Shown here: in pieces, positions 36,476-47,280 of the stretch
How the letters are laid out: each line of letters starts with the position of its first letter
Numbering within the stretch: the stretch's first letter is position 1
Assembly: GCA_002189035.1 (NCBI GenBank)
Contig: NEEC01000004.1
Span: 1,426,001-1,490,000, forward strand
Direction of reading: 5' to 3'
DNA length: 64,000 nucleotides
From: Utricularia gibba
Taxonomy: Eukaryota > Streptophyta > Magnoliopsida > Lamiales > Lentibulariaceae
Made by a program: the position numbers and the translations under genes
The notes under the pieces: generated by a model
Seen by the model: only the letters and a program-made list of their open reading frames with translations
The model's database searches: none
Told to the model about the DNA's origin: nothing

Positions 36476-39368
36476 ATGGTGGTAAATAAGCACTGTGTTT
36501 TTGCTAATGCATGGCCTTTGTGCTGCTTTTGTCTTCTCCTAATATCTAATCAATCCCTTACATGTTGCCCACCCCATTTTACACAAATAAAGAACATTTA
36601 ATATAATGTAAAAATAATTTCGTGTTAGGGTGGGGCCCAACCATGGATTGTCATATTATTGAATTCACTCCAATAATTTTTATAAAAACAACTCAAAATT
36701 TCAGTCAATGATATTAATAAATATAATTAAAAATTAATGAATTAAATTCAATTTCATTATAAAAATAATTCAATAAATAAATAATAAAAAAAGATATTAT
36801 TAAAATAGTGGTTTGTGTTGTGGTCCCCTGGCCAGACCAACAAAGAGCTGGCTGCGTGGGGGATGGATGGATGGGTAATAGCAATAATTAATGCCATGCC
36901 ATGCCATGCCATAGACCATCGAATGACGAACATGGTGATGCTTTCCCGAAAGGGATGTTAATGTTGACGGTTATTGAATCATCCAGACAAATGATAATTA
37001 GTAGTACACACTCCACATTCATCATCCTTGTCTCCTTCTAACCAATAATATGTTTCATTTTATTCTTTTTAAAATTATTTTGAGGAGTGATTCTAAAAAA
37101 AAAATAAAAATTCATTTTTTCAACTTGTTAAAAATAAAAAGTGACTTTGAATTTCTACTCTCTTTAAAATGGAATTCGGTTATATTTAATGATGAAATTT
37201 TGTATTCTTGGGATATTTATTTTTTTCAAGTCATTCTATTTAATTTTATTCATTTTAATAAAATTATAAATTTAGATTATATAATTAATTTTAAAATTGT
37301 TGAATTTTTTCATTTTTTATGATTAAATAATAAATAAATTAAAGAATATATTATTCAATTTCAAAAAGATTTTTTTTTATTTTTATATTAATTTTTATAT
37401 CATATCATAAAATAATTTATAATATTAAAATTAACTATATTTTATATAATTTGAATCAAACATTCAAAACACAAAAAGTTGTCTCTCTAACACGGGCCCG
37501 GTTCTACATATTTTAATGCATTTATTTTTGGATCACAAATTTTTTCTATTTATTATTCATCTTAGATTTGTTTATATAAAAAACTCGTAATGATAATATA
37601 TAATAATTATAATATTATTTTATTAAATACTACTGAAGAAGAATCCGCGTGTTGACGATCGTCGCTCGTGCGAGTGTTATGAACACGTGGTTACCATCCA
37701 ACGGGGGATGTGAGCTTCCACGTGTCACCGAGACATTGGCGCACCAAATACCGCATCCAGCACGCTCTGGATGGCATGCACTGTTTATATTGAAATACAG
37801 CTATTTTTGTAATTTCCATAGAATAAAAATAATAATAACAAAAAAACAAACGCGAAAGCCATCAGCCTATCACGTCATAACACCTTTCTTTTATCTTGAT
37901 TATTTTATGAGCAAGATATGGATGATGTCACGTTCAATAATGTTGTTGCATGTCGGGTACATTTTCAACGTGCCCACACGCGCCACTATAAAACTGAAAC
38001 ATGACATTATTGCTTATATTTTAATAGACAATGACAGCTGTCAATTTGGAATTTTTGTTCATTTTTTTAATTCTTCTTTCCCAATGTTTAAAAAGGTACT
38101 ATTCTGTAAATATATATTTAAGTTTTAAAGAATATAATATTTAATTATTATATAATAAAATTAGAAATTCAAATTATTAATTTCATAAATTATTAAACTT
38201 TATAAATCTTTATTTAGTGATTAAATAAAAAAGTTAATTAAAAATATATGACTCATTTTTTATCCAATTTTAAAATATATTTATATTATAATACTGAATT
38301 ATATATTAATTTACCATATAAATTATTATATTAAATTTTATAATATTATTTTAGATTATACTATAAAACAATTATATAATATTAAATTAATTTTATTTAT
38401 ATAAACTTAAAACTGTTTTTATTCTACATAATATGAATTACAGATTCAAAATACAAAACATTTCACAATAAACATTTAAAGATTTTATGTGTTTTCAAAT
38501 GTAAATATTATGATTGGAAAATTATTTATTTACTCATACAAATAGTTAATTAATAGCTAATTGTATGATTAATTTACAGGAAAAATAATTAAAGTTAGAT
38601 ATGGTAATTTGAAAAACACTATATTTCTCGGATTCAAGATTTGGGATTCAGAATTCTGAGGATGCGAGACTCCGAATCCGCAAAATTTAGAAGAATCATA
38701 AGAAAGATTTATATTTGTGTTTTTTAGGATTCATTTAGATAAGTTTTACATTCCTTATGTTTTTAAAAGAATTTTATATCTTTCATACCAATTTGATCTT
38801 TTTGGATAGAAAATGTATTTTGTGATTTTTCAGGACAATTTTGGAATAATTTGGAGGATTTTCGAACTATTTTGATAGAGTCAAAGATTTGATGTATCCA
38901 AATGAAGCCTTAGTCAAAGATTCTCGAATAAGATAAGATTCATATCTTATCTTGGAAAATTTAATCTTATACTAGAAGATCTGTATCAAATCTTAGAAGA
39001 TTCTAATGAAAGATTTGATATGAGTCCATCAAGAAAACCCAACAAATCCTTACTATTATATAAAGACTAGAGCCCAAAGATCGAAAAAGTTAGTTAGGGG
39101 GGACGATCAGAGAGTCAATTTAGGGTTTAGAGTCGAGTCTAACATGTTTTGGATGTCTTCCTTTTCGTTTTTCATCAATTTTTGTTGTTTAGAGTCGAGT
39201 ATGCACATGTGAGCGCTTGCGGCTGAGGATCTGCTGTGAAGCCTTGCTTGCGCAAGTCCTACGCGTGTGACTATCTTACTATGTTTTTCAGGATTTAATT
39301 TGATGTTTTATTCTGTTTTTCGCAACGTTTTCTTTACCAATGTGATCTTTAATACCATATAACCCTAA
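36476..39368. other. AT-rich spacer and older repeat flanking the transposon
   Basis: 36891-36910 is a short (ATGCC)4 microsatellite. 37050-38600 is very AT-rich with no gene. From 38640 to 39368 the sequence changes character, with a TATATAAAG at about 39057 and a transcript-leader-like stretch. It continues on the other side of the Harbinger element (45932 to about 46200), so it looks like one older repeat or transcribed unit that the transposon entered. Confidence 0.45.
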
Positions 39369-39391
39369 GGACGCGTTTGGTTGCTGGGTTT
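39369..39391 (+). repeat. left terminal inverted repeat of Harbinger element
   Basis: 23 bp; bases 8-23 are identical to the right end, with mismatches at bases 3 and 7. Preceded directly by TAA. Confidence 0.9.
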
Positions 39392-39882
39392 GGCCTACAC
39401 CCAGGTTTAGTTATTTGGGTTTAGGAAACCCGGTTTTGTGGGTTTCGGTTTAGGAATCGTGTTTGGTTGATGGGTTTACATTATTTGGGTTTAAATGAAC
39501 CCACGTTTGGTTGGTGGGTGGTTAATACATAATTTTCATGAGAATTTACCAATATAGCATTTTACACTCGTCTACCGTTTTCCACACCGACTTTACCAAT
39601 CAGACATATCCCTCTTTATTACCATAAGTTTTCCCAATGCGTTCACCGACTTTCACACTCGGTTGTCGCGGTGCTGCCGGTCGACGAGATCTCTCGATTT
39701 CACAAGTAATTGAGAGTGAACAACCATGGGTTATGTCCAGTTTGTATACTCCCTTCGTTGCGCAGAATTTGTCGTTCGAAATCCGTTGAATTTTGAGTGA
39801 ATTTTACGGTTTACTTGTGGTAAGTGCTCGGCGTAGTTGCTTTTTTCTTGTTGTTTTCTTTCCTCCAGCATAGATTGCAAGT

Positions 39883-40917
39883 ATGCACAGCCCAATCGTG
39901 GTGGAAGACTCTCACAAGAGAACGAAACGCGCCTGGAAGCCAGATGAAGAGAAAGACTTGTTGCACGCTTTGAAACAGATAGTGAATGAAGGCTGGAAAA
40001 TTGAGAATGGTTTTAGGGGTGGGTATCACTGAGCGTTAGAGACAGAGTTCTTGAAACTCCACCCTAGAATTGACATTCGCGCACACCCGCATATATCTAG
40101 CAAGGTGCATACCTGGAAAAAAGACTATTACCTCCTTGTAGATTTTTTATCTAGGTTGGGCACCGGTTTCAGTGAGCTGACCTACACCGTAGACGTAGAC
40201 GATGAGGTTTGGAAGGAGATTGATCAGGTACGTATGCCTTGTTGTCGCTGTGTTATATTCGGTGCTGACCGTGTTATTATGTCAGCATGCACCCAGACTG
40301 CGCGTCCTAAGACACAAAGCGTGGCCGTATTACATGGAGTGGCAGGAAATCTTTGAAATGGATCGGGCTAGAAGAGAAAAAACAATGAGCTATGTTCACG
40401 CGACTAGGAAGAGGAAATTCATGGAAGATGTTGGGGAGAATCTGGAAGTATCTTCGGATTGCCCTCTGGACACGATATGAACTTCTCGTATGCTGACACA
40501 CCTTGTGACCCAATTGGTTGCGCTGCGGAGGGTGTGAACGTCATGCCTAGTAGGGACTCCGAGTCACACAACAACACCGACTCGTCGCGGCGGACTGGAC
40601 GAAGTGGCAGGGGACCGAGGGGAATCGACGATGATGTGTAGTTCATCAAAGAAATGAAGGAGCTTAACGTGCGCACATGCGAAGAGCTACGTCACTTGGG
40701 ATTAACAGTGATGTAGCAAGCGCGGGAGTTGGTGGATAATCAGCGTCAGGCAGGGGAGATCATTAGAGGTATGTCGGTGCAATTAACTGCCATCGAACGT
40801 TTTACCATGGCAGAGACAATTAGTTCCAACCCTACGAGGTTGCGCTACTTCCTTGCCTCCAGTGACTGTGAAAGAGAGCTTATTGTGCGTGATTTAGCAT
40901 CAGAACGTAGATCTTAA
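39883..40917 (+). pseudogene. Harbinger ORF1 (Myb/SANT-like DNA-binding protein), decayed
   Basis: ORF1 proteins of PIF/Harbinger elements bind the element ends and help nuclear import of the transposase. Here the frame starts MHSPIVVEDSHKRTKRAWKP with DEEKDLLHALKQIVNEGWK, followed by FLKLHPRIDIRAHPHISSKV and TWKKDYYLLVDFL, the SANT-like fold of plant L10-interacting-type MYB domains. A small intron (about 40229-40287) fits before HAPRLRVLRHKAWPYYMEWQ and EIFEMDRARR. A TGA at 40030 interrupts the domain. A one-base loss in a C run near 40460 shifts the frame, and TAG codons stand at 40639 and 40714. The C-terminal part (MAETISSNPTRLRYFLASSD) is still readable. Confidence 0.8.
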
Positions 40918-41331
40918 ATCTGTCGTGTGGTGCTCCGCCTTATGTTAGACTCATGGACTAGATGTATTTCATCTTCTATTCATCCTTTAAACTGGCATGA
41001 GCACTGCAAAAGGTAGACAGTATTCTGACTTCGTATGTGGAAGAACCGCGTAAGAACAAGCGCGGTGTTTTGTTCTTGATCACTTTTCCGCAAACATTGT
41101 ACTGCAACTACCGCCACATTCATAGCGGTGCTATCGAGAAGTGATGGACTAGCACCGCGTTGGTGCTGCATATTACGAAGCACCACGTCTAGACACAAGG
41201 TTTCAAATCCAGAGACGGCACCGGATGTTTAACATTCGGTGCCATTACGATAAGTGGTCGATAAAAAACTAACAAGGTCAGCATAGGATAGTTCACGGAA
41301 GATTCATGCAATTTCAAAGGTGCACCGTCGA

Positions 41332-42332
41332 TTACACAAGAGTCTTATAATGCTTCCACAATGGGTGTTCCTCGTCTATTGGACGTTGACCTACCCGACG
41401 GCGATCGACGTGCGTGGGTACATCCATTTGGTTAATGAGAGCTTCCAGGAACGTCCTAATATCTCCCCCTTGAACCAGCGAACAATCATTGACCGCGGTG
41501 TACTTGAAGGTGGTTGGGAATATGGCATTTTCGGGCTGTCGAATGAAACTAAACAAGTGAAATAGGATGCAAGATGGTGGAGAATGAGCACAACCAGAAA
41601 CTCACCGGATTGTGTAGTGATTTGTACGGCGCATCATCGATGAGAAGCGTATTAAGACGATGATATTTGCCCTTGAACTCTTGGTTGGTGCCCCATACAT
41701 GATTCAAAAGCTTAAGTTTAACTGTGTTGTTCCTGTTGTCGTGCACCGGAATGGCCGGTGTCCACACACCTGGATCCATCCCATTGGAAGACGAGCTTGC
41801 TGGCTGCTGCAGTCCCTAGTAACCACTGAATCACATCGTGCAATTGTTCACGTCCACATGTCGTCAGAAAAAAAAATGTCAGCAAGAATGCCCCTTGTCT
41901 GCTAGGTGTTCATTATTACCGCCCTCTTGAAGACCAAATGGCGACGTCAAAGTGTTCCATGCAAAACTGTATCAACTCACATTCACCTGGTCGAAGATAC
42001 ACTATAAGCATAAGAAATAGTACTGACACATGCACCAAATATTAAATGCATATAAATGACATTGCATTACTGTTTCGCCAGTAAATGACGGCATCCGGCT
42101 TCGGCGCTCCCCATCTGACTTCGCGAGGATACACAATGTCCGCAAGTACGCCATTCACGTCAAATATAAGCAACTTCCGTGGTGGGGCCGTGTTATCACT
42201 CGATGGTCCACCGTATGACCACCTTGCTTCATACCATGCAAGCCGACCAAAAAAATCAAGATTCTCTGCATATAGTCTGTCCATTTGGATATACTTTGCA
42301 GTGGCAGCACCGCACCCGTCGTCGTGTGTCAA
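41332..42332 (-). CDS. FCP1/HAD-type phosphatase-like cargo gene (possibly degenerate)
   Basis: Reading the minus strand, pieces in order are: RKLLIFDVNGVLADIVYP (HAD motif I as DxNG, as I recall for plant FCP1-like proteins), then after an intron MYLRPGECELIQFCMEHFDV and AIWSSR (motif II region, T/S in WSS), then REQLHDVIQWLLGTAAASKL with VFQWDGSRCVDTG, then KLKLLNHVWG and TLLIDDAPYKSLHNP (motif III/IV with the DD pair), and after a further intron ENAIFPTTFKYT, GGDIRTFLEAL and GQRPIDEEHPLW before the stop. This is the order of an NLI/FCP1-homology phosphatase. One frame step near 41740 and an uncertain 5' exon make its integrity doubtful. It lies wholly inside the transposon, between ORF1 and transposase. 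Confidence 0.72.
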
Positions 42333-44038
42333 AATCGGTGTTGCCCCTCCGTGTTGCCCCAGACTTCTGGCTGCACATCTTCATCCTCTTCATGGGTCAC
42401 CTCCTCAAGATCATCATTTGTACTCCTACGTTGTCTACGGTGTCGAGGGACACCACAGATGCTGTGTCCTAGGGGCATTGATGAAGGGGGGCAAGACGTC
42501 CTCCAAGGACTTTGTTCTGCAAGAAAATAAATTCACAAACCTCCTTGCCGCACGTTTTGGCAATACCTCTATGCCTACAACGCAAACAGCAAAAAAACAT
42601 GAGTACTGTTCAACAAAACATGTGAATATCCGAAGTAATTGTTTATGATTACCTGATGGGTGTCCCACATTCTCTGACACTGTCAACGTTGTTGGCCATT
42701 CTGCAGCGGTGGGCATACCCATACAAAACTAGTCCACCAATCATCATATTCGCTTCTCACGTCTGTAACCAGTACCACACCAGGTTTTCCATGAAGCGAG
42801 TAGTGCGGACTCCCCTTGCGTTGGACACAGACAGAAACTGCAAAGAAGACACGCATTTCTGGGAGTATGTCCTCTTCACAGATCTGCAGAAATGCGAGAA
42901 CGTGTGCCACAGAACGCGGTGTGAGGTGGGAGAGCGGGATCTGGAGTGCAGCAAGTATTTGCACCAAGAAAGGGGGCGGGGGGGGGGGGGGGGGGAGTCG
43001 CAATCCACACTGAAAGTGCTCGGTGCTGACGGCGAATCGCGAACCGCCAACTCTGGATGGCAGTTCGCCGTCGGACATTTCGCCCGGCTGTTTATCCCAC
43101 ATCGTGTAACCGTCGGGAATTGAGAAGCGGACACGTAGTTTCTCACACGTAAACCGAAAACAATAGACGTGCTACTCGACAATGGCAACGAAGAATTTGA
43201 AACGCAAAAGGCAAAGGTGCCTACCGTCGCGGCGCTGTTCTAGAGAGGTTGCCGAGGAGATTGTTTTCGCGATGCTGCTGCACGTTTGCCGAAAGGGTGG
43301 AGTTGGATGGGCAGAATTAATGAAGTTGTTTTGGAAAGTGCACAATGTCAGACGCCTTTATTGTGCGCAGGGGGGGTATTAATAGCGTTGGGCGGTTGTC
43401 AACCGCCCTTCGCATTTAATGCTGAATAACCGCAATATTTTATGGCATTTTATTTTTGGAACTCAGAACACCGGATTATGTTTTCGCGGTGCTGTGGAAT
43501 GCGTAGCGTACCTCAGGCATTTAGAAACACCGCATATAACGGATCGCGGTGTTTTGTCAAATGGAGTATTATTGTACTACCAATCACCCACGCTAACATG
43601 TACCAGCTGCATACATATCTACTTCTAAATTTTGACAGCACCGGATACGTGGAAACATCCGGTGCAGCACTGAACGCGGCATAGCCCAAGCGTACAGAAG
43701 CACCGGAGTTTACGGTTCGCGGTGTTCGGTCAAATGACGATTTGCTGTACTACCAAATACCCTCACTACTATGCATCAGCTTCACACTCATCTAATCTTT
43801 AATTTTTATGAGCATCGGATACGGTGAAACACGTGGTGTTGTCGACAACGGTGGTGTCGTACAAGCATCTGTAGCACCTCAACTGAAGATCGTGATGTTG
43901 TACAATCCCAACAATTTGTGCATCAACTACCAAATACTTTGCAATTTCAAGTTCAAGTTGGAGTACAAACGACACGATAGGTTCGATACGGGAATTAAGG
44001 AAAACCACTAGCATGACAATGTCTAAAACAGTGTTACA
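42333..44038. other. internal non-coding part of the transposon
   Basis: Between the phosphatase-like gene and the transposase. Holds overlapping open frames without a domain, a run of 18 Gs at 42978-42995, and diverged duplicated blocks (about 43430-43830). The 5' exon of the phosphatase-like gene may lie at 42333-42722; an acidic stretch (DDLEEVTHEEDEDVQPEVWG) reads on the minus strand there. Confidence 0.5.
43470..43830. repeat. diverged direct duplication with CGGTG/CACCG motifs
   Basis: A block containing ACACCGCATATAACGGATCG, then CGGTGTTTTGTCAAATG, GTACTACCAAT, CAGCTGCATAC and GACAGCACCGGATACG (about 43523-43640) recurs in altered form (AGCACCGGAGTTTACGGTTC, GGTCAAATGACG, GTACTACCAAATACC, CAGCTTCACAC, GAGCATCGGATACGG) at about 43698-43825. 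The same CACCG/CGGTG words appear near 41130-41240 and 45478-45520. Confidence 0.65.
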
Positions 44039-45383
44039 CTAGTGGCGCCTGCGGGATGCCAGCCACTCGGTGTACATCCCCTCAGCTTGCTGGTCACGCC
44101 ACCTATTCCATGCTTGATTCCCTCCGGCAGATGTCATGACATCTTCTGGATCACTCGTGTCCCCAGCTTCATCCTGGAAGTCCAATGGGACCTGATCCTC
44201 CAAGGGATCGACCACCATCTCCTTTCGAATGAGGTTATGAAGTAAAGCACATGCCAATACAATGCGGTTTTGTGTGTCTACGGAATAGTAGCTAGTCATC
44301 CGTAGTATACCCCACCGCATCTTCATCAAGCCCCAAGCTCGTTCGATCACATTTCTGACTGATGCATGCCGCATGTTGAATAACTCCTTCGCATTCTGGG
44401 GTGCTCCATTTCCCTGGCCCCACTCCTTTAAGTTGTAACGGACTCCACGGTATGGTGCCAAAAAGCCCTCCCTATTGGCGTATCCCTTGTCACATAGGTA
44501 ATATGTTCCTGTGTCATCGCGTATACCAGGTGCATAAAATCATTGGAATCACATGTGCAAGAGCTAAACAAGTAAAATACCTGGGCGTACACGCAAGCCG
44601 TCGGATCGTGATAGTGCATCGTTGAGCACCCGACTATCTGCAGTAGACCCCTCCCACCCAGTAAGCACATATATAAATTTCATGTGTTCATCACATACAC
44701 CCAACACGTTGGTGGATATCACCCCCTTTCGATTTCTATACCTTGCAGCATCACATTTGTTAACTCGTATACCGATGTATGTGTCATCTATGGCTCCAAC
44801 ACAACCCTGCAAATGCATAATCAATTTTAGGATACACATTCGTAAAAAGAAGCATGAAAGATGTGTCAACCTGGAAGTGTTTAAACTTTCCTTCGGATGC
44901 ACGTTCTGCAGCGACTACCGGGGTCTCTAACAGCACCTCATGGAGGCAAAGCACCGCATGCAACACCTTTTGGAAGCACCGAGACTGTGTCTCGGTGCTC
45001 CTCCCGTAGGTATACTTCTGCACCTGCATTTTTTTATGATGACCTAATATTCCTAAAAACATGCAAACCATCTCCGGAACCGTTACATATTTTCCAGCCT
45101 TTAAGTTAGAACGATTTTCTAATAGACTACATAAAACACCCAACGCATCTCGGCTGATTCTCAAATTCTCAATGGATGCGCTGTTCACATCACTCACCAA
45201 CCTACTAATAAACTCAACTTGTCTAGGAATCTTGTGTGTAAGTGAATACTTGCGTCTCAGCCTATATCCCCTACGGTATTTCCTTGAATGTAAGTATACT
45301 AACACATTCATCTGCACCAAGTATTCAGTCAAAACTGCCGCTGCCGCACTCAAGATGACATGACCCTCCGTGAAAAAATCCAT
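44039..45383 (-). CDS. PIF/Harbinger DDE transposase
   Basis: A DDE-type nuclease (DDE_Tnp_4 family) that cuts and moves the element. Exons 44871-45383, 44581-44806 and 44039-44508 join exactly to 402 residues with no stop. The N-terminal helix-turn-helix part contains RISRDALGVLCSLLE and TVPEMVCMFLGILGHHK. The catalytic domain has GCVGAIDDTYIGIRV (first acid), YVLTGWEGSTADSRVLNDAL (second acid), YYLCDKGYANREGFLAPYRG and RHASVRNVIERAWGLMKMRW (catalytic Glu), then the usual ACALLHNLI. Ends with EWLASRRRH. The reading frame looks intact, so the protein could still be made. Confidence 0.92.
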
Positions 45384-45669
45384 GTCCCCTCAACAGTCAC
45401 CAAAATTGAGCAAAATAGGTTCACTGAAACAGCACCACAAATTCTGAAATTGAAAATTCACAGATAAAAATCCACAAGCGCGGTGCTGCCGTGGTCGGCC
45501 CCTCGCGGTGCTACCGTGGACCAACCCACTAAGAACAGAAAGCATATTTACCGAAAGACCCACCCTCTTGCGCTCGAACAGGCGACGCCACTGGCAAAGC
45601 ACGAACGAATTCTGGGTTGTAGACCTGCGTTCAAATGCAGTTCACGCGAGGGCAAAAGTGGAAGTGCCG

Positions 45670-45800
45670 AGCTGGGTTTAGCTAAACCGATCCCCACCCC
45701 CCCCCCCCCTCGGGTTTAGCTAAACCGATCCCCACCCCCCCCCCTCGGGTTTAGCTAAACCGATCCCCCCCCCCCCCCTCGGGTTTAGCTAAACCCAGCT
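45670..45800. repeat. palindromic minisatellite with poly-C tracts
   Basis: GGGTTTAGCTAAACC, a near-perfect palindrome, is repeated four times (about 45674, 45713, 45749, 45781), separated by GATC plus C tracts of 9-13 bases and CTC. The last copy runs into AACCCAGCTCC. It sits about 130 bp inside the right end of the transposon. Confidence 0.85.
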
Positions 45801-45908
45801 CCACGGGTTCCTGCCTGGTTTATGGTCAATAGGTGGGTTTATTTTTACCCACCTGAAACCCACGAACCAAACGTGGATTTATGACTAAACCCACGTCGCA
45901 ACCCACCT

Positions 45909-45931
45909 AAACCCAGCAACCAAAGGCGCCC
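45909..45931 (-). repeat. right terminal inverted repeat of Harbinger element
   Basis: Reverse complement of the left end apart from two bases; followed directly by the TAA target duplication. Confidence 0.9.
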
Positions 45932-47280
45932 TAAGAGAGTATGAGAGAATCAAAGGTTGCCTAAAGCATCTAAGAAGAAGAGCTTAATTGGACATTGTTG
46001 GTAAGACATATTATGTCTAATTTGTCTGCGAGGTAAAAGGTGTAGGGGTTAGATTTGGGTGTGGGGAAAACATGAGTTATCACAATAAGTGAAAAGGGCT
46101 CTGGTGGCGTAGTTGATTCCATAATCCCACAAAACAAGGGACGGTGCTATAAAGGTCATCAAGTAGCACTATTTTAGCATAACACCCCCAAAACTTGCGC
46201 AAGCAGATCAATTCTCAAGGTTTGTACACACGCAAGGGCGAGTTTCAAGTAAGTTGGATCTTAGATACAAGGTTAATTTTTCTTATTGTTTTCAAAACCA
46301 AATATCTTAGATACAAGGTTAATTTTTCTTATTGTTTTCAAAACCAAATCTTTCTTTTGTTTTCAATCCTTTTAAATCTTTGTTTTGAAAAGAAAATTTC
46401 AATAACAATTTCTTATGGATACGATCTTATTTTATTACTTCGACGATTTCTGTGTACTTACAGAATCACCATCACTAAATAACAAAAAAATATTACATTA
46501 TTAAATACTAAAAAAACAACAATATTTATTTGTAATAAAACCAGAGTAATAAAACTGATGATTACTTGGAAAAGGAGTAGTGATTCATAAAGAATAGAAT
46601 GAAGGGTTCATTTTTACACAACATATAGCGAATGGCAAGTGAATCCAAATCTGATTGGTAAGGGATTCATATTTTGGGTGCAAAACAAGGAATCCAAATA
46701 AAGGGAGAGTTGAGTGCACAATTAGGACCTCAAGAAAAAGAAATAGACTTTAGAGGCTGCATTTTTCCCCTTCTTGCATTCTATGGAGGTAGTGTGTGGG
46801 GTTTTGTTGACGTGAATTATGTTTTGATGGGCACCTAATTTCCCTGCAAAAACTTGGAAAGGTGAGTTTGACAACACGCAAAAGAATCAAGCAAATTCCT
46901 TATCTCAGGCGCTTGCTGGCGGTTTCCGGGCATTCGTCCTTTGGACCCTGCCCTGCTTATGCTTCTGGGGCAATAATGCAGCACCCCGGCACTGGATCCT
47001 TCTCTCTCAAGGCGTTTACAAACTAATGCACAGTTACCTTTCTGGAGTGTCTTTCTTTCGGGACAGTCGGACTTCACATTAAGGACTTGTACAACAGTAA
47101 CGAATATGAAGTTCAAACCAATCCCACAAAATTTGTTCTGATGAATTTTTGTAAATTCCGGTGTGGTAAGAATAACATCATGAATTCTGCTTATCCCAAG
47201 CAGCGGTCTGCTGCAGGCTCCTGAGCAGCTCCCGGGATGAAAATGATGGTGATACATAGCGAACAATGTCTTGTGCAGGT
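45932..47280. other. spacer right of the transposon
   Basis: 45935 to about 46200 looks continuous with the interrupted older repeat left of the transposon. 46258-46349 is a perfect 46-bp tandem duplication. 46500-47280 has no recognised gene; the end should be the 3' untranslated region of the YebC-like gene. Confidence 0.5.
46258..46349. repeat. 46-bp tandem duplication
   Basis: ATCTTAGATACAAGGTTAAT followed by a T-rich tract to CAAAACCAAAT occurs twice head to tail without a mismatch (46258-46303, 46304-46349), so the duplication is recent or is an assembly duplicate. Confidence 0.9.

Follow-up and report, generated by a model that had tools for sequence, protein, structure and literature searches.

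The PIF/Harbinger element found in the window, that is, the whole 64,000-nucleotide stretch of Utricularia gibba DNA that was analysed, carries between its ORF1 and its transposase a gene that probably unites a Transposase_28/TRP28 domain (hereafter T28), a linker and a HAD/FCP1-like domain. The balance of the evidence, which comes from sequence comparison within one genome, favours T28-linker-HAD being a standing third gene in a number of PIF/Harbinger subfamilies and in at least two families of hAT, where it would assist the carrier element in being expressed or in evading silencing.

The element occupies positions 39369–45931 (6,563 bp). Its terminal inverted repeats lie at 39369–39391 (plus strand) and 45909–45931 (minus strand), and a TAA target-site duplication flanks them on both sides (39366–39368 and 45932–45934), so that the 6.56-kb element with matching ends and TAA duplication described in the first-pass annotation is confirmed. 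With the flanks included, the two arms comprise 27 nt and are 89% complementary. ORF1 is encoded on the plus strand by exon 1 (39883–40230), which is Myb/SANT-like (PF12776) and contains one in-frame TGA, and by exon 2, whose matched part spans 40280–40477; it matched Myb_DNA-bind_3 in Pfam with an E value of 2.5e-5. The transposase is encoded on the minus strand by exon 1 (44868–45383), exon 2 (44573–44818) and exon 3 (44039–44530, with the stop), and DDE_Tnp_4 was matched in Pfam in two of the three, exons 2 and 3. All exon limits in the window were set from tblastn matches, with the splice sites judged by eye. The 3-bp TWA duplication, the terminal inverted repeats, the DDE_Tnp_4 transposase and the Myb/SANT ORF1 are those by which PIF/Harbinger elements are recognized. 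Pack-TYPE elements are defined, in the available part of the source, as non-autonomous elements with captured gene fragments and without a transposase gene (PMC8903248), and this class was ruled out for the window since the transposase and ORF1 are within the same element. Judging from its reading frames, the present copy is probably non-autonomous, because ORF1 exon 1 is interrupted by the in-frame stop and the HAD gene shifts frame internally.

The T28-HAD gene is read on the minus strand. It begins with an open frame (42683–43171) that contains the T28 domain (PF04195 at 43027–42842; 32.3 bits against a cut-off of 26.2, E 1.2e-7), followed by the linker, an acidic stretch (42329–42532) which, in the window copy, is not in frame with the HAD exon. 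Four HAD exons follow: the motif I exon (LLIFDVNGVLADI), with a matched part at 42063–42245 and an open frame up to 42380; the motif II exon (FDVAIWSSR) at 41920–41996 and the motif IV exon (LLIDDAPYKSLHNP) at 41600–41867, both with approximate limits and the latter with an internal frame step; and the last exon (NAIFP...GGDIRTFLEAL...GQRPIDEEHPLW) at 41332–41544, with the stop. When joined, the HAD exons matched positions 1–159 of the 160 of the NIF profile (PF03031), with 32.5 bits against a cut-off of 21.8 and E 8.4e-8, and in the PDB they matched the solved structure of UBLCP1 (3shq, E 6e-4); taken singly, none of the window HAD exons gave a Pfam match. This profile match excludes a chance similarity of motifs. 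The first-pass annotation had placed the HAD exons on the minus strand between ORF1 and the transposase, had recognized in them a HAD/FCP1 similarity and had seen one frame step; the exon positions hold, the similarity extends over nearly the full PF03031 profile, and the frame step is real in the window copy, in the third HAD exon. The gene is longer than had been described, the upstream PF04195 domain having been overlooked. A long G-run at 42974–42996, in the T28 frame (Pro codons on the minus strand), exceeds that of most aligned copies, which may be due to slippage or to an assembly error.

Of the 18 HAD-bearing Harbinger loci that were read (L001–L017 and the window), 17 have T28 upstream of HAD; L014, where T28 was not matched, is the sole exception. 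A single open frame runs from T28 into the linker in L004 and L006, and from a related linker into HAD motif I in L016, L020 and L030. Since T28 is on the same strand upstream and open frames join the parts, T28, linker and HAD probably form one gene. A PDB search with the T28 profile gave a best E value of 1.7, and the predicted structure of T28, of low confidence (pLDDT 41), gives no support to DNA binding.

Catalytic roles are assigned to the HAD motifs, and FCP1/SCP-type phosphatases are recognized by DxDx(T/V), with two Asp in motif I. In the transposon HAD this motif is DxN (LLIFDVNG in the window), with Asn at position +2 in 25 of 25 readable transposon copies (two of the 27 rows are gapped), and the host FCP1-like genes also present DxNG. 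The first Asp of motif I is kept in 22 of the 25 readable rows. Motif II has Ser or Thr in all 25, with the second Ser of WSSR in 23 and Thr in the remainder. The second Lys column is kept in 25 of 26 rows, while the first is variable, and in motif IV the first Asp is present in 23 and the second in 21 of 26. As the usual acid/base Asp is missing in transposon copies and host genes alike, catalysis by the protein is doubtful, and for this same absence the protein should not be classed as an FCP1-type phosphatase. The earlier reading of the motifs as those of such a phosphatase is therefore not supported, the second Asp of DxDx(T/V) being Asn.

The distribution of the gene was searched in the whole genome assembly (100.1 Mb, 516 contigs). 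The DNA of the element had 91 matching pieces with 76–100% identity, and its exons had 230 matches for the HAD protein, 179 for the transposase and 168 for ORF1. Clusters were built from the best 150 of the 230 HAD, 150 of the 179 transposase and 150 of the 168 ORF1 matches, so that counts of repeats derived from them are lower bounds. Among the matches listed there are at least 178 clusters: 31 with ORF1, HAD and transposase, 19 with ORF1 and transposase, 14 with HAD and ORF1, five with HAD and transposase, and single-gene clusters of HAD (37), ORF1 (48) and transposase (24). In every one of the 31 three-gene clusters among these matches HAD is flanked by ORF1 and the transposase and shares the strand of the transposase, opposite to ORF1, which is the place and strand that had been described for the window copy.

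The HAD-bearing Harbinger loci that were read fall in three subfamilies, A (the window and L001–L010), B (L013–L017) and C (L011 and L012). An identical TWA duplication together with end repeats matching at 12 or more of 14 bases was found in seven of the 17 testable HAD-bearing loci, the window scoring 12, and was absent in the other 10; when the same end-finding rule was applied to 340 sequences with shuffled flanks, one scored 12 or more of 14. One of the 27 transposon HAD rows, L028, lacks a transposase match within the stretch read, and many copies of the HAD gene carry stops or frame steps. In loci of other Harbinger lineages, neither T28 nor HAD was matched at E 0.05 in any of the nine that were fetched; as a positive control, host HAD queries alone recovered 18 of 18 HAD-bearing loci. 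These nine loci, together with the 19 ORF1 and transposase clusters without a listed HAD, indicate that T28-HAD is dispensable. Two further copies of subfamily A may be mentioned here. The match of the close copy at C409:233295-237985 skips approximately 1650–2938 of the window element, losing HAD and not T28, and the HAD-rich fragment at C1:5722694-5725260, without transposase or ORF1 among the matches listed, looks like a deletion derivative.

The gene was also found in hAT elements. In L020, T28-HAD lies beside frames with hAT-like_RNase-H (1.8e-7) and Dimer_Tnp_hAT (2.8e-7), and L041 presents Dimer_Tnp_hAT at 8e-23; PF05699 is thus present in both, and PF14372 is above the cut-off in L020 and below it in L041. 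The transposase of L030+L040 was recognized only through its similarity to the L020 protein and L041. A genome query with the L020 hAT protein gave 122 matches, and the zone within 6.5 kb of these matches makes up 1.3% of the genome. Among the matches listed, and with second rows of one hAT locus omitted, a hAT match occurs within this distance in 16 of the 37 HAD-only clusters, against eight of the 141 clusters belonging to the six remaining types. Region L030+L040 has an exact 8-bp duplication and 11 of 11 matching end bases that enclose both T28-HAD and the transposase, and L020 and L041 are bounded by hAT ends whose 8-bp duplications agree at seven of eight bases. In the other six of the nine regions searched, hAT ends with an 8-bp duplication were not found, and some of these six may extend past the stretch read. 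Nested insertion was ruled out as the source of the association, since in three regions ends and duplications enclose both genes; it is also contradicted by the hAT2 copies, which align mutually across both T28-HAD and the transposase. In hAT2, as in Harbinger, T28-HAD and the transposase share a strand, with T28-HAD coming after the transposase; in hAT1 the two genes are convergent. The suggestion that the gene might be specific to the Harbinger element is consequently not borne out.

The host relatives of the HAD part were searched with a consensus of a plant FCP1-like family. Four host genes (L043–L046) were matched exon by exon at 45–78% identity, with 66–78% for the best exon of each gene, whereas the same query matched the longer transposon exons mostly at 33–41%, so that a single capture with a near-identical host gene was rejected. 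Three introns are shared. The intron after the GRA/YGR site has its GT at equal distance (phase 1) in the four host genes, the window, L011, L016, L020 and L030. A GT also stands at equal distance after WSSR, in phase 2, for three of the host genes and, among the transposon copies, for the window, L011, L016 and L041; in L020 this base pair is altered. After NP, the phase 0 GT is common to three host genes and to the transposon copies of the window, L016, L020 and L041, and it is altered in L011. Two additional host introns are absent from the transposon HAD genes. A tree was built with 17 of the 27 transposon HAD rows (five of the 11 of Harbinger A) and the host genes, in which one branch (100/100) separates all transposon copies, as a clade of their own, from the four host genes. 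From the shared intron positions and this single clade, the HAD part was probably captured once, as genomic DNA, from the host FCP1-like family. Five ordinary PF03031 hits (L032–L036; five loci of 20 rows) were tried as the host source and rejected, since none of them matched the transposon HAD at E 0.01; motif I is DLDET or DLNET in some of them, and the remaining ones we take to be CPL-like.

Topology tests rejected neither the grouping of all Harbinger copies (p-AU 0.221) nor that of all hAT copies (0.142), and hAT1 grouped with Harbinger B (83/84; 0.96 in a FastTree run without hosts). These trees would be compatible with a single transfer between Harbinger and hAT or with several. In the transposase tree, L025, which is without HAD, was placed among the HAD-bearing lineages (0.91 and 0.93), and loss or separate gains of HAD are therefore possible. 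The first-pass annotation had offered a captured host gene and an element-specific third gene as alternatives, and both seem true in turn, a capture followed by a long life as a third gene. Descent from the host, fixed place and strand, and, in the largest subfamily, dN/dS values like those of the transposase agree with this, and the part of the claim that made the gene specific to Harbinger does not stand. Nor does a single passive capture, since the gene has an identical position in other copies and the four host genes that were recovered are distant.

Selection was estimated as dN/dS pooled per subfamily, with intervals from a codon bootstrap; copies decayed after insertion raise these pooled values. 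In Harbinger A, the largest subfamily, dN/dS is 0.40 (0.30–0.54) for T28 and 0.45 (0.37–0.54) for HAD in 11 copies, against 0.45 (0.37–0.55) for the transposase in 11 copies and 0.40 (0.31–0.51) for ORF1 in 10. The values of the gene thus equal those of the transposase. In hAT2 (six copies) HAD has 0.39 (0.28–0.54) and T28 0.57 (0.40–0.82), and the values for hAT1 (two copies) are 0.39 (HAD) and 0.32. Harbinger B presents 0.71 (0.56–0.91) for HAD, 0.49 for T28 and 0.59 for the transposase, and Harbinger C (two copies) 0.60, 0.53 and 0.75, respectively, with intervals reaching up to 0.95–1.29. Between subfamilies the synonymous change is saturated. The HAD gene appears to be retained about as well as the transposase in Harbinger A, and less clearly so in B, where selection is weaker; in C it is poorly resolved.

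The presence of the gene in many related elements and in a second, unrelated kind of transposon suggests that T28-HAD helps its carrier elements to move or to escape control. In the mechanism that we propose, the N-terminal T28 domain would bring the HAD domain to the DNA of the element or to the nuclear transposition machinery; the HAD domain might then bind phosphorylated transcription or chromatin proteins, such as RNA polymerase tails, or act on them through a weak hydrolytic activity, and the element could in this way be better expressed or evade silencing. Because sister Harbinger lineages are without the gene, we infer that it is helpful and not needed for transposition as such. The absence from sister lineages and the many broken copies would suit a useless passenger, in which case an ancestral Harbinger or hAT element would have captured a host gene on one occasion and the other kind of element would have acquired it by nested insertion and recombination; pieces of host genes are common in plant PIF and hAT elements according to the available portion of PMC2528002. 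Against a passenger are the protein and motifs kept despite saturated synonymous sites between subfamilies, the dN/dS of 0.40–0.45 in subfamily A, like that of the transposase, the order and strand fixed in 31 of 31 clusters among the matches listed, and the presence in two superfamilies; this explanation is largely refuted and we regard it as improbable. Selection on behalf of the plant, through a host-domesticated or host-beneficial gene, is more improbable still: 21 of the 37 HAD-only clusters have no nearby transposase of either kind among the matches listed, but some of them are Harbinger A fragments, copies are found within delimited elements from several families, and the four host members of the FCP1-like family stand apart from them.

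The remaining alternatives concern the manner in which the protein would act. A pseudo-phosphatase adaptor, which would bind phosphorylated partners or the transposase complex without hydrolysis, is a tentative possibility that accords with the invariant Asn of motif I in transposon copies and host relatives and with the loss of the motif I Asp in three of 25 rows and of the first motif IV Asp in three of 26. Nevertheless, the motif I Asp, the motif II Ser/Thr, the second Lys and the motif IV Asp are otherwise kept (22/25, 25/25, 25/26 and 23/26), seemingly beyond the need of a scaffold, and some HAD enzymes function without the second Asp. By analogy, T28-HAD might instead shield the element from transcriptional silencing in the manner of VANC, which is an anti-silencing factor, or of TET/JBP. 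We know of no role of FCP1-like domains in DNA methylation, which weighs against this tentative analogy. In its favour, the pattern is as for the fungal TET/JBP, an accessory enzyme common to hAT, Harbinger and other superfamilies in the available text of PMC12730594, and T28 also occurs in antisense ORFs of Retand, as far as the accessible part of PMC11963269 describes them, and beside a gypsy-type integrase at L047. A broader speculation, to which we give limited credence, is that T28-HAD constitutes an independent, mobile accessory gene, moving between cut-and-paste superfamilies and acting as a transcription or anti-silencing factor for its carrier, T28 being a common nuclear-interface domain in plant elements of both classes (Harbinger, hAT and Retand). 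If true, it bears on the published question of the origin of the Retand TRP28 region. Our preferred reading of T28-HAD as a standing third gene makes it a testable candidate for the dealings of plant DNA transposons with host transcription or silencing.

PIF/Harbinger elements have been described as two-gene machines: in the available part of PMC2836001, virtually all coding elements then characterized hold two genes, both needed. The window element is like them in its TWA duplication, terminal repeats, Myb-like ORF1 and DDE transposase, and differs in the third gene between ORF1 and transposase, a gene under selection and common with hAT that probably joins TRP28 to an FCP1-like domain. TRP28 was described in antisense ORFs of Retand gypsy elements with a predicted DNA binding and, within the text available, without similarity found outside elements or to other known elements (PMC11963269); one of the two papers on the subject (PMC11963269 and PMC7264820) states that it is confined to flowering plants. 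T28-HAD and the Retand antisense ORF share PF04195 in a transposable element of a flowering plant, but Retand is an LTR retrotransposon whose T28 is described, in the available parts of both papers, without HAD, and here TRP28 is placed in two DNA transposon superfamilies, hAT and Harbinger. Locus L047 (C328:343500-353499) presents the Retand arrangement, a T28 frame (26.0, against a Pfam cut-off of 26.2) being encoded on the strand opposite to that of a gypsy-type integrase.

Accessory enzymes common to several transposon superfamilies are already known, as the available texts on TET/JBP and ULP1 indicate. The fungal TET/JBP dioxygenase is likewise an accessory enzyme of hAT, Harbinger and other elements, with transfers between superfamilies, but it is a different enzyme in a different kingdom (PMC12730594, available part). 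The ULP1 protease of MULE and CACTA is likewise a host-derived accessory domain in two plant superfamilies, with a different enzyme and different superfamilies (PMC2528002, available part). A literature search that covered part of the matching papers found no phosphatase-like or T28-HAD gene named in Harbinger or hAT. The host genes L043–L046 and UBLCP1 (3shq) share the NIF/HAD domain, and the host genes also share DxNG at motif I and the three introns, yet the host genes have two extra introns and are distant in the tree.

Some repeats were observed in and around the window element. Just inside its right end, at 45659–45804, a unit of about 35 bp, with the palindrome GGTTTAGCTAAACC and C-runs, occurs four times in tandem; these copies look like subterminal repeats and a potential binding site for a transposon protein. 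A 128-bp direct repeat (43506–43633 and 43679–43806, 71% alike) lies between the T28-HAD gene and the transposase, and two identical 46-bp tandem copies (46258–46349) lie directly outside the element. In some hAT2-like loci, a second T28 match is present on the opposite flank of HAD (C213:3036184 and 3039907; C414:470281 and 472897; C1:4837140 and 4840848), perhaps representing a second T28 gene.
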